DNA of 51,275 bases from Pseudomonadota bacterium (GTDB lineage Bacteria > Pseudomonadota > Gammaproteobacteria > Nitrosococcales > Methylophagaceae), in contig JALIBN010000011.1 of NCBI GenBank assembly GCA_030576275.1, forward strand, positions 1 to 51,275, written 5' to 3'. A model generated the notes under the pieces. It did no database searches. It was not told the origin of the DNA and saw only the letters and a list, made by a program, of their open reading frames with translations. The translations under genes and the position numbers were made by a program. Shown one piece after another: positions 10,530 through 16,506 of the stretch. How positions within the stretch are numbered: position 1 is the first letter of the stretch; each line of letters opens with the position of its first letter.

Positions 10530-12572
10530 ATGATGTTTTCGTTGAGAAAGATTTCTTTATTAGTTGCAGTGGCCAGTTCTTGTGCCAGCCCTGTTGTTTT
10601 TGCTGAGGGTGAAGTTGCATTAGATAGTTTGGTTGTCACAGGCACACGTTCGGAAACATCGTTGTTAGATCTAGCAGGTAATACCGGCAAGATTTCTGAA
10701 GAAGAAATTGATTTTGTAAGGGCAGATCATATTACCGAAGTGCTTAATCGCCTTCCTGGTGTGATGGTGCAGCGTGGAAATGGTCAAGAGCATTTAACAT
10801 CAATTCGTTCGCCGATTTTAAATGGTGGTGCGGGTGCAGGCTCATTTTTGTATTTGGAAGATGGCGTGCCAATGCGTGCGGCAGGGTTTGCGAATGTAAA
10901 TGGTTTATTTGAAGCCAATGCTGAACAAGCTGGTGGTATTGAAGTTGTAAAAGGTCCTGGTAGCGCGTTGTATGGGTCAAATGCGGTTCATGGTTTAATC
11001 AACGTGCTTTCGCGTGCACCATCACTAGATCTTGAACGTTCAATTGATGTTTCTGTCGGTCCACATGATCTCTATTCAACTAAAGCGACCGTGAGTGACA
11101 CTATCGGTAATCAAGCTTACCGCTTTAGCTTGAATGGTACGCATGATGGTGGTTGGATCGATGACTCAGGTTTTGATCAACAAAAAATGACATTTCGTCA
11201 TGATTACTATGGTGAAAAAGATACTTTTAAAACAGTATTTAATGCGTCGAATTTAAATCAAGAAACAGCTGGTTATGAAGTAGGCACTGAGGCATATAAA
11301 AATACGGTTGCATCAAAAACAAATGAATATCCAGAAGCTTATCGTGATGCCAAATCCGCAAGATTGTCTATGCGTTGGGATCATGAATTACGTGATGATG
11401 CTTATTTTAGTTTGACTCCCTATATTCGACATACTGAGATGAATTTCTTGATGCATTTTCTTCCTGGAACGCCTGTAGAAGAAAATGAGCATGACAGTGT
11501 TGGTTTGCTTGCAGCTTATTACAAAGATCTAGAGGGTGGTCACAAAATTATCGTAGGTACCGACTTCGAGTACACTGAAGGTTCATTGTCTGAAGTTCAA
11601 AATGATCCGAATACCTATACTTTTGGTAAATATGTGCCAGGTGTTCATTACGATTATGATGTCGATGCAACTGTCATTGCACCTTATATCCATACTGAAT
11701 GGCAAGTAGCTGAAAATACACGAATTACAGCTGGTGCTCGTTATGAACATACACGTTATGAGTATGACAATAAAACAGCTGATGGATTAACTGGAACGAA
11801 GATATATCGGCCAGCTGATAGAGATGATACATATAACAACTTTAGTCCAAAGTTAGGATTAGTCCAATCGCTGACTGAAGATACGAGTGCATTTATTAAC
11901 TTAGCTCGTGGTAATCGTGCACCACAAACAACAGATTTATACCGTCAACGTAAAGAGTCAAATAATGTGCTTCAAGCAGATTCTGAAACCATAGACAGTC
12001 TTGAAATTGGTATTAGAAAATTGGGAGCGGGAATACAATATGAAGTGAGCTCGTTTTACATGAAGAAAAAAAATTATTTCTTCCGAACTACGGCTGATGA
12101 TAACGTGCCTGATGGTAAAACAAAGCATTATGGTATTGAATTGAGCATGTTTGCACCATTAGGTGAGCAATTTGATTTAGGCGGAAGTTTGACCTATGCC
12201 CGCCATCAATATGAGTTTGATAATGAGACGGCTAATATTGTAGATGGCAATGATATGGATACTGCCCCTCGCCATATAGCGAATGTGCGTTTGGGTTGGA
12301 ACTTTAAACCCCAAAGTCGTGCTGAGTTAGAGTGGGTTCATGTAGGTCAATATTACACGGATGAAGGCAATGCTCAAACTTATGACGGTCATGATTTGTT
12401 GAATTTACGTGCAACACATCATTTATCACATGATGTTACTGTCTATGGTCGAATTTCTAATCTTTTAAATACTGAATATGCTGAAAGAGCTGATTATAGT
12501 GGCTTTGCTGGAGATCGTTATTTCGTAGGAGAAGAACGCGGCCTGCATGTTGGAGCAAGCTATAGCTTCTAA
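10530..12572 (+). CDS. TonB-dependent outer-membrane receptor
   Basis: This is a 680-residue outer-membrane gated channel for import of a scarce ligand such as a siderophore or another metal complex. It has a signal peptide (MMFSLRKISLLVAVASSCAS, cleaved near VFA-EGE) and a TonB box close to the mature N-terminus (LDSLVVTGTR). A plug domain follows (VLNRLPGVMVQRG, then VVKGPGSALYGSNAVHGLIN). The long beta-barrel ends in the usual aromatic strand (GASYSF). No inner-membrane transporter or TonB/ExbBD lies beside it, so the ligand cannot be named. It is monocistronic and ends in a strong terminator. Confidence 0.92.
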   Translation: MMFSLRKISLLVAVASSCASPVVFAEGEVALDSLVVTGTRSETSLLDLAGNTGKISEEEIDFVRADHITEVLNRLPGVMVQRGNGQEHLTSIRSPILNGGAGAGSFLYLEDGVPMRAAGFANVNGLFEANAEQAGGIEVVKGPGSALYGSNAVHGLINVLSRAPSLDLERSIDVSVGPHDLYSTKATVSDTIGNQAYRFSLNGTHDGGWIDDSGFDQQKMTFRHDYYGEKDTFKTVFNASNLNQETAGYEVGTEAYKNTVASKTNEYPEAYRDAKSARLSMRWDHELRDDAYFSLTPYIRHTEMNFLMHFLPGTPVEENEHDSVGLLAAYYKDLEGGHKIIVGTDFEYTEGSLSEVQNDPNTYTFGKYVPGVHYDYDVDATVIAPYIHTEWQVAENTRITAGARYEHTRYEYDNKTADGLTGTKIYRPADRDDTYNNFSPKLGLVQSLTEDTSAFINLARGNRAPQTTDLYRQRKESNNVLQADSETIDSLEIGIRKLGAGIQYEVSSFYMKKKNYFFRTTADDNVPDGKTKHYGIELSMFAPLGEQFDLGGSLTYARHQYEFDNETANIVDGNDMDTAPRHIANVRLGWNFKPQSRAELEWVHVGQYYTDEGNAQTYDGHDLLNLRATHHLSHDVTVYGRISNLLNTEYAERADYSGFAGDRYFVGEERGLHVGASYSF

Positions 12573-12592: not shown

Positions 12593-12639
12593 CAAACAAA
12601 AAAGCGGCGATAATTAAATTATCGCCGCTTTTTTGTTTG
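12593..12639. terminator. Bidirectional intrinsic terminator between convergent genes
   Basis: A perfect 22-bp stem (12593-12614 with 12618-12639) with a 3-base loop has a GC-rich core (GCGGCGAT/ATCGCCGC) flanked by A and T runs on both sides. It therefore works for the TonB receptor (+) and the ATP-grasp gene (-). Confidence 0.95.
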
Positions 12640-12655
12640 TAAATTACCTATTTCT

Positions 12656-14140
12656 TTATCGTATTCCGGATTTTTGCGAATCTAAACGTCGTAAGAATTC
12701 TCGCATAATATCGTCATACAGTGCGACACCGAGATGGGCATCTTCGACGCCGCTATCTATATTCGGGTTATCATTAATTTCAATCAACACTACACGGTCA
12801 CCGCTTTGTTTGATATCTATCCCATAAAGGCCATCACCAACTAAGCGAGCGGCTTTGGTTGCCACTTTAAGTACTTTCTCAGGCACATCACTCAGTGAAA
12901 ATGCTGCTGAGTTACCACTAGCCGTTCCTTTCGATGTATTGTGATTGTATATTTGCCAGTGGCCTTTACTCATAAAATATTGGCAGGCAAAGATCGGTTT
13001 GTTGTTAAAGACACCAATACGCCAATCGTAGTCGGTGTACATAAATTCTTGTAGTAACACGATGGCTGATTGCTGAAAATACTCAGCAGCGTGCAGACGA
13101 AGTTCTTCAGCTGAATTTACTTTGATAATGCCGCGTGAAAAGGCGCCATCAGGGATTTTCATCACCAGCGGAAAAGCCACATCATTACAAATTCTATCCA
13201 TGCCAGCATTATCGTTGCGATAGAGCAGATATGAATCTGGCATCGGTAATTTGTTGGCAACCAATAATTCCATTAGATAAATTTTATTGGTGCATCGAAT
13301 GATTGAGGTCGGATCATCAATAACAACGAGTCCTTCTCTTTCGGCTCGGCGGGCGAATTTGTAGGTGTGATTATTGGTTGCCGTTGTTTCACGAATAAAC
13401 AGGGCATCATATTCAGCCAATCGGTTGTAATCTTTAGGCGTGATGAGTTCAACATCTATGCCAATACGGCGGCCACTTTGAATGAAACGTTTAAGGGCTG
13501 TCGCATCACTAGGCGGCATTGCTTCTTCAGGATTATGTAATATTGCCATGTCATAACGGAAACTGCGTTTTTTGGACGGTTTACGCCACAGTTTGCGATC
13601 AAAATTATCCAGTGCATTAGCAAAACTGTCTTGCTCTACATCATTGAGCTTATTGATCGCGCCGGCTTTGACTGTGCTAATTTGCCAGTGATCTTTATGG
13701 CTAAACTCAATTTCTACAATTGGACATGGAAATTGCTCATAAATCTGCCGAGCCAGTTTTTGTAGCGGTTTGATATCACAATAACCAAAAAACACTTTAA
13801 CGAGGAAAGGACGTTTATCACTGTTATCGGTTGCAGAAATTAATTTATCGAGTTGTGGCGCTAGCTCCGTGATGTCATAGGCATAAAGACTTTTGCGCGA
13901 TAAATCATTAATCGTGCGCAATCCGGGAATGACTTTATGACCGCGAGCTTCGGAAACCATCGAGCAATAATACCCAGGACTGAGATAATCTAAACTATGA
14001 CAAAGATTGATTACTTGTGACACTGATCTGCTTGTCTGTGTAGGGTTTTGCAGATATTCATCGACAGTAATAACTTGAACGCTTGGGAAATAAGGCGCCC
14101 AATCTTCTTTGTTTTCTATAATTATTAGGTGATTAGTCAT
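12656..14140 (-). CDS. RimK-like ATP-grasp ligase with N-terminal RLAN-type domain
   Basis: This 494-residue protein is predicted to join a carboxylate to an amine using ATP. The N-terminal part (about 1-190, starting MTNHLIIIENKEDWAPYFPS) resembles the RimK-like ATP-grasp N-terminal (RLAN) domain. The pre-ATP-grasp and ATP-grasp regions follow: a lysine strand (LVMKIPDGAFSRGIIKV), the adenine-side strand (VLLQEFMYTDYDWRIGV), and the Mg-binding EINDNPN near residue 463. It is much longer than RimK (about 300 aa), so it is not the S6-modifying enzyme. It is divergent from a DUF2817 peptidase and a GNAT-C39 gene, and the three together look like an amidoligase module. The substrate is unknown. 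Confidence 0.85.
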   Translation of the reverse strand: MTNHLIIIENKEDWAPYFPSVQVITVDEYLQNPTQTSRSVSQVINLCHSLDYLSPGYYCSMVSEARGHKVIPGLRTINDLSRKSLYAYDITELAPQLDKLISATDNSDKRPFLVKVFFGYCDIKPLQKLARQIYEQFPCPIVEIEFSHKDHWQISTVKAGAINKLNDVEQDSFANALDNFDRKLWRKPSKKRSFRYDMAILHNPEEAMPPSDATALKRFIQSGRRIGIDVELITPKDYNRLAEYDALFIRETTATNNHTYKFARRAEREGLVVIDDPTSIIRCTNKIYLMELLVANKLPMPDSYLLYRNDNAGMDRICNDVAFPLVMKIPDGAFSRGIIKVNSAEELRLHAAEYFQQSAIVLLQEFMYTDYDWRIGVFNNKPIFACQYFMSKGHWQIYNHNTSKGTASGNSAAFSLSDVPEKVLKVATKAARLVGDGLYGIDIKQSGDRVVLIEINDNPNIDSGVEDAHLGVALYDDIMREFLRRLDSQKSGIR

Positions 14141-14306
14141 GGCTGTGGATTAGTGCCTCGTTAATGAAAGGTTGTCATTTAAGAGAATAATAAAGTTATT
14201 ATGAATGCTGTGTAATATTTATTTTTTTGTGGGGATTATTTCTCTGGATTAAAGCTGAAAACTCACCTATCCTTCGCAAAAATTTTTTGTTTTGGAGTGC
14301 CGTATT

Positions 14307-15386
14307 ATGTACACCGATGCTGTTTTGAATGTGTTTTCACAGCGTTATTCTGATGCCCGAGAAAAATTCATGTCTGCTGCAGAAATGAGTTCTATTGTAG
14401 ATAAAGTGAATAGTCATCAGCATACGCTCAAAGGCCCCAGAGGCGAAAAATTGTTTTGTGATATCGCTTGGGCAGGTAATCCTAATGCGAAACAGGTCTT
14501 GGTATTAGTCTCTGGCTTACATGGCGTTGAAGGTGGGGTTGGTTCAGCCATACAATCAGATTTCTTAACGCGCCATCGCAGACTACCTGCAGATTTGTGC
14601 GTGGTATTAGTTCATGCGCTCAATCCTTGGGGTTTAGCATGGGCAAGTCGTAGCGATCATGAGGGCATAGACGTTAATCGTAATTTTGTCGATTTCTCTG
14701 CCCCATTACCCACTTCAAAATCAGCCGATATTTGGCAGACGTTGATTGATAAAAAGGTTGATATAAATACGGTAGGCAGTGACCGTCAACAATTCGATTT
14801 ATTGAGTGAAGGGCAATATGACGATCCAACCGCCCTATATTTTGGCGGCAAGCAAGCTAGCTGGTCTCGACAGTGTATTGAACAGTTAGCAGGACAACTT
14901 CATCTTACTGAACGCGAACAAGTCATTGTGATTGATTTGCATAGTGGTTTAGGGCCTTATGGATATGGCGAAATAATTAGTGATCACCCCGTCACTGACC
15001 CTGCTAGAAATACAGTGCTGGATGTTTTTGGTGCCAGTGTTACTGAGCCTGCTTTGGGCACCTCTAGTTCAGGCTTAAAACAGGGCTTACATGATTATTT
15101 TTGGCATGCTCAAGGAGACCATGTCAGTTTTGTCACGCTGGAATTTGGCACTTTTAGTAGCAGTGAAATGTTGCGTGTTTTATTTGCGGATCAACAATTA
15201 CAACAGCAGAAGGTTAGCTGGCAAGATGAGAAAACACGTGAGATTAAATACGCGATGCAGGATTTTTTCTGTCCAGATGAGAAGCGATGGCAGGAATTAG
15301 TATTATTTCGTGGGCGACAAGTGATTGAAATGGCAATGAATGGCTTAACGAGCTTAAACGGATTGGATGGTAATGTTAACAACTGA
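14307..15386 (+). CDS. DUF2817 family M14-like zinc carboxypeptidase
   Basis: This 359-residue protein has the metal and active-site pattern of M14 peptidases: HGVE (His72, Glu75), the substrate-binding NRNF (about 124-127), DLHSG (His212) and a late glutamate in TLEFG (Glu279). These fit the DUF2817 group, thought to hydrolyse amide or peptide bonds. No signal peptide is seen, so it should act in the cytoplasm. The ATG at 14307 is preferred over a TTG 15 bases upstream because GGAG lies about 10 bases ahead. It overlaps the start of the GNAT-C39 gene by 20 bases, so the two are translated together. The exact substrate is unknown. Confidence 0.82.
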   Translation: MYTDAVLNVFSQRYSDAREKFMSAAEMSSIVDKVNSHQHTLKGPRGEKLFCDIAWAGNPNAKQVLVLVSGLHGVEGGVGSAIQSDFLTRHRRLPADLCVVLVHALNPWGLAWASRSDHEGIDVNRNFVDFSAPLPTSKSADIWQTLIDKKVDINTVGSDRQQFDLLSEGQYDDPTALYFGGKQASWSRQCIEQLAGQLHLTEREQVIVIDLHSGLGPYGYGEIISDHPVTDPARNTVLDVFGASVTEPALGTSSSGLKQGLHDYFWHAQGDHVSFVTLEFGTFSSSEMLRVLFADQQLQQQKVSWQDEKTREIKYAMQDFFCPDEKRWQELVLFRGRQVIEMAMNGLTSLNGLDGNVNN

Positions 15387-16506
15387 GAATAATGTCTGGA
15401 TAAGACCAGCAGTTGTCGGCGATGTTGGCCAGCTGGTCGAGTTAGAAAATAATTGTTTTGATTCTGACCAATTATCACGCCGTAGTTTTAAATGGATGAT
15501 TACAAAAGGTAGGGCTTTGTTGCTGGTGGCGGAGTCTGAGCAACATATCGTAGGTTATGTCTTGTTGCTTTACCATCGCGGTACCTCGTTAGGTCGAGTT
15601 TATTCGCTGGCGGTTTCTGCTGAGCAAAGAAAACTAGGTCTAGCTAGACAATTGATGGAAATCGCAGAGCGCGAAGCCTTGGAAGATGGCCGAAGTTTTT
15701 TACGATTGGAAGTGCGGCCTGATAATGCGGGTGCGATTCGCTTATATGAAAAATTAGGATATGAATTCTTTGATGTAGTCAGTGACTATTACGAAGATCA
15801 TGCTGATGCATTAAGGATGATGAAGGTCTTGCATCACGAGCCGGAGCAAGCACATCAAAAAGTAGCGCATTACGCTCAAACGACGGACTTTACCTGCGGT
15901 CCTGCGGCACTGATGATGGTGATGAAAACGCTCAGACCGGATTTTGAGTTAGATCGTAGTTTAGAATTAAAGTTGTGGCGTGAAGCAACCACTATTTTTA
16001 TGACATCGGGTCATGGCGGATGCAGTCCTCACGGACTGGCCTTATCGGCTTATCAACGCGGTTTTTCGACAACACTCATTGCCAGCAGTAAGGAAACACC
16101 TTTTATCAACGGTGTGCGTAATGAAGAGAAAAAAGCGGTTGTTGAGCTGGTGCATCATGATTTTCAACTAGCTATTGCTGAGACGGATATGGCCGTTGAG
16201 ATAGGTCCAGTTGATGTGGCTATCTTACAATCATATTTGGAGAAAGGGGCATTGGCGGTGGTGTTAATTAGCTCTTATCGCTTGAACCAGAGCAAATCAC
16301 CTCACTGGGTGGTATTGGCCTCTATTTCAGATACTTTTGTTTATTTTCATGATCCTGAGATAGATTTGGAAGAAAATAAAAGTCTGACAGATAGTTTGTA
16401 TATTCCGGTAACGCATGAAGAGTTTAATCGGATATTAGGTTATGGTCAGCCGCGTTATCAAGCCGCAATAATATTACAGCCTGATAACGAAACGGCTAAG
16501 CGCTAG
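15367..16506 (+). CDS. GNAT acetyltransferase fused to a peptidase C39-like domain
   Basis: This is a 379-residue two-domain protein. Residues 10-155 form a RimI-like GNAT acetyltransferase ([20 protein letters not shown] is the acetyl-CoA loop; [20 protein letters not shown] follows). Residues 165-370 resemble the papain-like C39 peptidase fold, with Cys177 in FTCGPAAL, His313 in SPHWVV and Asp329 in FHDPE as the likely triad. There are no membrane segments, unlike bacteriocin-export C39 transporters. A start at ATG 15373 is also possible. The gene overlaps the DUF2817 gene, and its stop interlocks with the argH stop on the other strand. Confidence 0.85.

Follow-up and report, generated by a model that had tools for sequence, protein, structure and literature searches.

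A predicted amide ligase and a RimI-like acetyltransferase as the core of a gene module with variable hydrolases

What might an ATP-grasp ligase, an acetyltransferase and two hydrolase-like proteins do together? Three genes in a 51,275-nucleotide stretch of DNA from a Methylophagaceae bacterium (contig JALIBN010000011.1 of assembly GCA_030576275.1; hereafter the window, meaning the whole stretch that was analysed) raise this question. A preliminary description of the window treated them as one three-gene module. Here, we find that the core of the module is an RLAN-type ligase together with a RimI-like acetyltransferase of the GNAT family, that the C39-like (DUF3335) peptidase half fused to this acetyltransferase in the window is often absent elsewhere, and that the remaining gene, of the DUF2817 family, is an accessory of one clade. 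Thus, the co-occurrence implied by the preliminary description stands, and the equal partnership of the three genes does not. The features of the module are:

12656..14140, minus strand: predicted RLAN–ATP-grasp amide ligase of 494 residues, with Pfam RLAN and RimK ATP-grasp matches; RLAN domain at 13613-14062, RimK/LysX/ArgX-like part (residues 195-490) at about 12671-13558
14141..14306, no strand: intergenic stretch separating the ligase from the divergent DUF2817 and GNAT–C39 genes; promoter-like matches weak
14307..15386, plus strand: DUF2817 zinc-hydrolase-like protein of 359 residues, PF10994, ATG start, HxxE...H...E set present
15367..16506, plus strand: GNAT–C39-like (DUF3335) fusion of 379 residues; GNAT at 15424-15819, DUF3335 at 15865-16476

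Open reading frames (ORFs) and Pfam matches bear out the places, lengths and families first given for these genes. The two plus-strand genes share exactly the 20 bases described (15367-15386), and the divergent gap, put at about 165 bases, measures 166 from the ATG at 14307, or 151 from a second possible in-frame start, a TTG at 14292. The catalytic residues listed for the three proteins are likewise found: EINDNPN in the ligase; H72/E75/H212/E279, numbered on the 359-residue DUF2817 protein and unchanged in 11 aligned sequences; and C177/H313/D329 in the fusion, which together with a probable oxyanion residue, Q171, are unchanged across 23 aligned C39 sequences. Because of the family E-values and the conservation across genomes described below, a chance arrangement is excluded.

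The ligase matches the Pfam RLAN family over residues 27-176 (7.9e-49; PF14401, 165.6 bits, cut-off 25) and the RimK ATP-grasp family (5.5e-09; PF08443, 36.3 bits, cut-off 21), which places it among RLAN-type RimK-like proteins. Its EINDNPN motif lines up with the E/N segment of RimK from the same genome, and D442, E454 and N456 align to D, E and N of that protein, positions with metal-site roles. In an AlphaFold2 model of the ligase (predicted local distance difference test score, pLDDT, 78.6), residues 195-490, the part taken into the structure comparison, are predicted to fall on RimK, LysX and ArgX structures (Z 24.7-26.8 over the nine best entries), the top solved match being RimK 7qys_E (Z 26.8, root-mean-square deviation (rmsd) 2.7, 274 aligned). 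A LysX/ArgX carrier-protein system was rejected: the ligase scores 80.9 bits on the LysX model, below its cut-off of 275.6, and a search of the genome for the LysW carrier gave 0 matches, with the control positive in 4 of 14 genomes.

The fusion protein matches DUF3335 (PF11814) at 8e-81 (270.9 bits, cut-off 25), and GNAT models as well. In its AlphaFold2 model (pLDDT 89.2), the GNAT half (residues 5-164) appears nearest to Ard1/RimI (4pv6_I, Z 23.2, rmsd 1.5, 150 aligned). It also has the E and Y positions of the genome's own RimI, E115 and Y141/Y142, the catalytic Glu/Tyr, and with this fold they mark it as an N-terminal acetyltransferase-like GNAT. When the C39 half was compared by sequence with solved structures, the best matches, to BtrH_N proteins, were not significant (E 0.073). 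The DUF2817 protein belongs firmly to its family (PF10994, 2.8e-82, 277.4 bits, cut-off 23). It falls short of the AstE/AspA family (PF24827, 15.5 bits, cut-off 25) and has no M14 (PF00246) match at E 1 or better; its relatives peak at 21.4 bits for AstE/AspA and 16.6 bits for M14 (cut-off 21.6). Its PDB match, to 4oko, is weak (E 0.0032).

If the three genes work together, then they should be inherited together, a check that the preliminary description had proposed. Within the genus, the result is strong: of 25 genomes, the same 6 carry all three families and the other 19, some of them incomplete assemblies, lack all three (Fisher p 5.6e-6, kinship ignored; all Fisher p-values here are rough because the genomes are related). 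We inspected 11 of the 19 module-free congeners around argH, whose 3' end is overlapped by 4 bases by the GNAT–DUF3335 gene in the window. The module's flanks meet directly in 6 of these 11, the TonB receptor gene adjoining argH in G015, G008, G013 and G017, and dnaJ adjoining it in G012 and G018 (G and L numbers are our handles for genomes and loci). One or two ORFs with no match to the window genes lie between the flanks in G007, G010, G011 and G016; for G020, no far flank was located. Among the five module-positive congeners, the module adjoins argH in G001, G006 and G014, just as in the window, and other ORFs intervene in G004 and G021. This is most simply explained by gain or loss of the three genes as a single block. 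Since 6 of the 11 module-free congeners keep argH by the same TonB or dnaJ genes, we dropped argH as a hint to the module's function.

Across a class sample of 229 genomes, RLAN is present in 50, strong DUF3335 (E below 1e-70) in 34 and strong DUF2817 in 9; weaker matches to DUF3335 (4 further genomes) and to DUF2817 (13 further genomes) were not counted. The association of the first two families is again strong, with DUF3335 in 33 of the 50 RLAN genomes and in 1 of the 179 others. The pair lies within 5 kb in 30 of these 33 genomes (23 co-directional, 6 divergent, 1 convergent); in G228 and G237 the two genes are near the ends of different contigs, and in G089 they are unlinked. All 4 class genomes that have both DUF2817 and RLAN carry DUF2817 inside the module. 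The nearest named relatives of the RLAN ligase include many from Pseudomonas and Dyella/Rhodanobacter. On plasmids, an RLAN protein is found on 11 of 72,556 records at E 1e-30; the fusion matches nothing in phage records at E 1e-15.

We compared gene neighbourhoods along a ligase tree of 132 RLAN rows drawn from 141 regions, built by a quick method and with several long branches flagged. The tree excludes nine regions without an RLAN ORF longer than 380 residues (L107, L108 and L110-L116) and a short second ORF in L073. As the 80 named loci are the best 80 of at least 591 matches, the counts of locus types lean towards the window's kin. A GNAT–C39 fusion is the ligase's companion in 59 loci, the fusion plus DUF2817 in 16, and a GNAT without C39 in 36; 10 loci are of a C39/GCS2/FGase type, 10 are bare, and 1, at a contig edge, has DUF2817 only. 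Thus, a RimI-like GNAT accompanies the ligase in 111 of the 132 loci. On a profile made for this analysis, these GNATs reach 112-212 bits and the genome's own RimI 62. No more than 400 bases separate the GNAT gene from the ligase, the exceptions being the 16 DUF2817 loci and L118; the DUF2817 gene separates the two in 15 of the 16, and another gene does so in L118.

C39, by comparison, is absent from 36 of the 111 ligase and GNAT loci. A tblastn search for the domain in these 36 loci and in the bare loci other than L086, L109, L185 and L195 (6 of 10) found nothing credible, with 6 of 6 controls positive; weak, short matches in L164 (E 0.057) and L142 (E 0.54) were rejected as domains. Contig ends are close to several of the bare or GNAT-only loci, among them L086, L109, L145 and L195. 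The 16 DUF2817 loci all fall within one 33-row tree group (support 96), where their distribution requires several gains or losses. The ligase is divergent in 15 of them. The DUF2817 gene shares bases with the fusion gene in 14, and a gap of 2 or 6 bases parts them in the remaining two; overlaps here are taken from longest-ORF starts and may be overstated. In the excluded region L108 (5623-7243), a truncated GNAT runs into RLAN, and the ligase is split over several frames. We reject this as a GNAT–RLAN fusion, the gene being fragmented and its GNAT shortened; the broken module is either a decayed gene or an assembly fault.

The C39/GCS2/FGase loci form one sister clade on the ligase tree (support 100), in which the ligase's partners are a solo C39-like protein, a GCS2-type carboxylate-amine ligase and an FGase-family protein. 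All three are present in 8 of the 10 loci (L078, L080, L082, L088, L089, L094, L096 and L102), while L084 has GCS2 only and L100 the solo C39 only. GCS2 and FGase are families that handle small glutamate-type molecules. The preliminary description had seen no precursor gene; in agreement with this, no precursor-like gene of at least 70 residues recurs in 61 clustered neighbourhoods, where shorter ORFs were not called, and no recurrent exporter adjoins the module there. Among the larger clusters of genes outside the module in these neighbourhoods, c2, c3, c4, c6, c9, c11, c12, c13 and c19 were scanned for families through one to six members each. Cluster c6, an ABC ATPase found in 5 of the 61 regions, does not lie beside the ligase, and the one member scanned has no membrane domain.

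What, then, does the module make? The reading that we favour, tentatively and at a little under even confidence, is that its product, made and recycled in the cytoplasm, is a small N-acyl peptide or amide. The GNAT would cap an amino acid or short peptide at its amino group; using ATP, the ligase would join the capped unit to a second amino acid or to an amine; and trimming, transfer or recycling of the resulting N-acyl peptide would fall to the C39-like and DUF2817 enzymes. Elsewhere, whichever hydrolase a lineage carries might trim or recycle the product. The conserved positions of the ligase, the GNAT in 111 of 132 loci and the variable hydrolases together suggest an acylated product with lineage-specific recycling. 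A small N-acyl product is favoured over a protein tag by the lack of a precursor of at least 70 residues or an adjacent exporter, and by the GCS2 and FGase partners of the sister clade. We also count for a small-molecule module the presence of RLAN in 33 of the 34 DUF3335 genomes.

Several observations weigh against this reading. RimK, LysX and ArgX act on protein carboxyl termini, and the GNAT half is, in its model, nearest to protein N-terminal acetyltransferases; nearest solved ligases that act on protein C-termini, together with a GNAT like protein N-acetyltransferases, favour a protein substrate. Trimming cannot be a step common to all loci, since many lack C39 and DUF2817, and class-wide the association of DUF2817 with RLAN is not significant (4 of 9 DUF2817 genomes have RLAN, p 0.11). 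The GNAT, too, is missing nearby from 21 of the 132 loci, namely the 10 of the sister type, the 10 bare ones and the DUF2817-only one. Finally, the literature searched, judged from titles and abstracts, gives no substrate, product or experimental work for the module.

The strongest rival is that the module tags proteins: the ligase would add amino acids to a protein in the way RimK modifies S6, the GNAT would cap amino groups, and C39 and DUF2817 would erase the tag, much as RimB does for RimK. We consider this less likely but still a serious possibility. The ATP-grasp fold is closest to RimK, LysX and ArgX, and the GNAT half to protein N-terminal acetyltransferases. RimB is reported to remove RimK-added glutamates in vitro (PMC12239564). 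On another contig (L209, 3703-6178), the genome itself also keeps rimB and rimK with an AstE/AspA-family hydrolase gene directly after them, so that a second ATP-grasp ligase lies beside a zinc-hydrolase family in the same genome. We name rimB by its Pfam match (PF05618) and its best match to the RimB model, though it falls below that model's cut-off. Against protein tagging, no candidate target gene of at least 70 residues recurs near the module, the GCS2 and FGase partners found in the sister clade come from small-molecule families, and the genome has no LysW-like carrier.

Detoxification, in which the GNAT would acetylate and the hydrolases would cut toxic amino-acid or peptide analogues, seems improbable. 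It would fit the patchy inheritance within the genus, and the GNAT half does resemble the ArsN1 and streptothricin acetyltransferases, weakly and far below cut-off; its matches to RimI and Ard1 are far stronger. Detoxification leaves unexplained the ligase, which every locus has (by selection) and which keeps its catalytic positions. A graspetide-like ribosomal peptide pathway whose precursor is unlinked or very small is very unlikely. ATP-grasp ligases and C39 peptidases are both found in such pathways (PMC8939145), but no small ORF of at least 70 residues and no adjacent exporter recurs in the 61 neighbourhoods, smaller ORFs being uncalled. Least credible of all is that these are second copies of the ribosomal enzymes that modify S6 and S18: they share fold and family likeness with RimK and RimI, but the true RimK (477.9 bits, cut-off 331) and true RimI (132.3 bits on TIGR01575, cut-off 86.4) are both kept elsewhere, on another and a third contig, while the module's ligase reaches 31.6 bits on the RimK equivalog model NF007764 (cut-off 331) and its GNAT 78.1, just below the RimI cut-off of 86.4. 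A standard identity as RimK and RimI is therefore rejected, including the S6-modifying RimK that the preliminary description had named as the outcome that would undo its proposal; the real RimK lies elsewhere, with RimB.

Beyond the module itself, a TonB-dependent receptor gene (10530-12572) adjoins the ligase in the window, and genes of similar length, a likeness by length alone, occupy its position in the Methylophaga loci L122-L124. Between the two genes lies a further feature:

12593..12639, no strand assigned: strong inverted repeat carrying runs of A and T, situated between the ligase and the gene for the TonB receptor

Its stem of 20 pairs includes 8 G-C pairs, scored on the minus strand, and it is likely a terminator separating the two genes. 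Elsewhere, 9 of the 61 neighbourhoods (L063, L070, L072, L074, L081, L091, L092, L097 and L117) have an ArgE gene transcribed divergently from the GNAT–C39 gene. All 6 members given to curated models score above the acetylornithine deacetylase cut-off, and ArgE is followed by argA in L072 and L117, where argA passes its own cut-off, and by a gene of the same cluster in L092. It is as likely that ArgE is the hydrolase partner in these loci as that true arginine genes are adjacent by ancestry. An M14 zinc carboxypeptidase gene takes the same divergent place in L064, L065, L073 and L083 (one member scanned). In several Pseudomonas genomes and in G089, a metal transporter-like gene of the CorA family starts within about 8 bases past the ligase stop:

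CorA-family gene: L130, 8487-9410; L126; L169; L174; L106, 7220-8098

Four Pseudomonas members belong to the family by Pfam or NCBIfam similarity, and the genes of Pseudomonas and G089 fall below the cut-offs of named NCBIfam transporters.

A broader proposal, doubtful but worth stating, is that the RLAN ligase and GNAT make a widespread N-acetylated peptide metabolite whose level the hydrolases set, while the sister branch makes a glutamate conjugate. If this were true, the metabolite might serve Gammaproteobacteria, among them Pseudomonas, Methylophaga and Dyella, as an osmolyte, a redox buffer or a signal, with C39 and DUF2817 as lineage-specific controllers of its level, and the sister branch product would be a related one, built by the GCS2-type ligase with an FGase-like hydrolase. 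RLAN-type ligases occur in 50 of the 229 class genomes, yet the literature searched gives no product for them. The minimal pair of ligase and GNAT, together with the contrast of presence and absence within the genus, should make the product findable by comparative metabolomics or proteomics.

How does the module compare with known systems? Its ligase is close in ATP-grasp fold to the LysX/ArgX carrier-protein ligases, from which it differs by its score below the LysX cut-off and a genome without LysW. N-acetylglutaminylglutamine amide (NAGGN) is made by a trio of GNAT, ATP-grasp and hydrolase that yields an N-acetyl dipeptide osmolyte. The combination is the same as here, but the NAGGN GNAT is fused to another ATP-grasp protein, TIGR03103, and an NAGGN synthetase was rejected, since the best TIGR03103 score in the genome is 28.4 bits against a cut-off of 569. 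The RimB–RimK system of S6 glutamylation is alike in having a RimK-like ATP-grasp ligase beside a peptidase gene; our module differs by its extra RLAN domain, its acetyltransferase partner and the lack of an adjoining retropepsin gene. The two families cited for RloABC of Pseudomonas aeruginosa (PMC12239564) are not among the module's three genes, and the likeness lies in an ATP-grasp protein of the cytoplasm that has a genetic link to a peptidase. The closest precedent is the survey of predicted amidoligase neighbourhoods by Iyer et al. (2009; doi 10.1039/b917682a), which, as seen through the papers citing it, covers ATP-grasp and acetyltransferase-fold ligases and includes the same DUF3335–GNAT fusion; a 2023 paper cites it for this fusion. 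To that extent, the preliminary description's reference to comparative work on amidoligases was right, and the fusion and its amidoligase link are already published as predictions. Our data are the source for the inheritance of the block within the genus, the GNAT-only core, the accessory nature of DUF2817 and the sister type; part of this may already be in Iyer et al. (2009).

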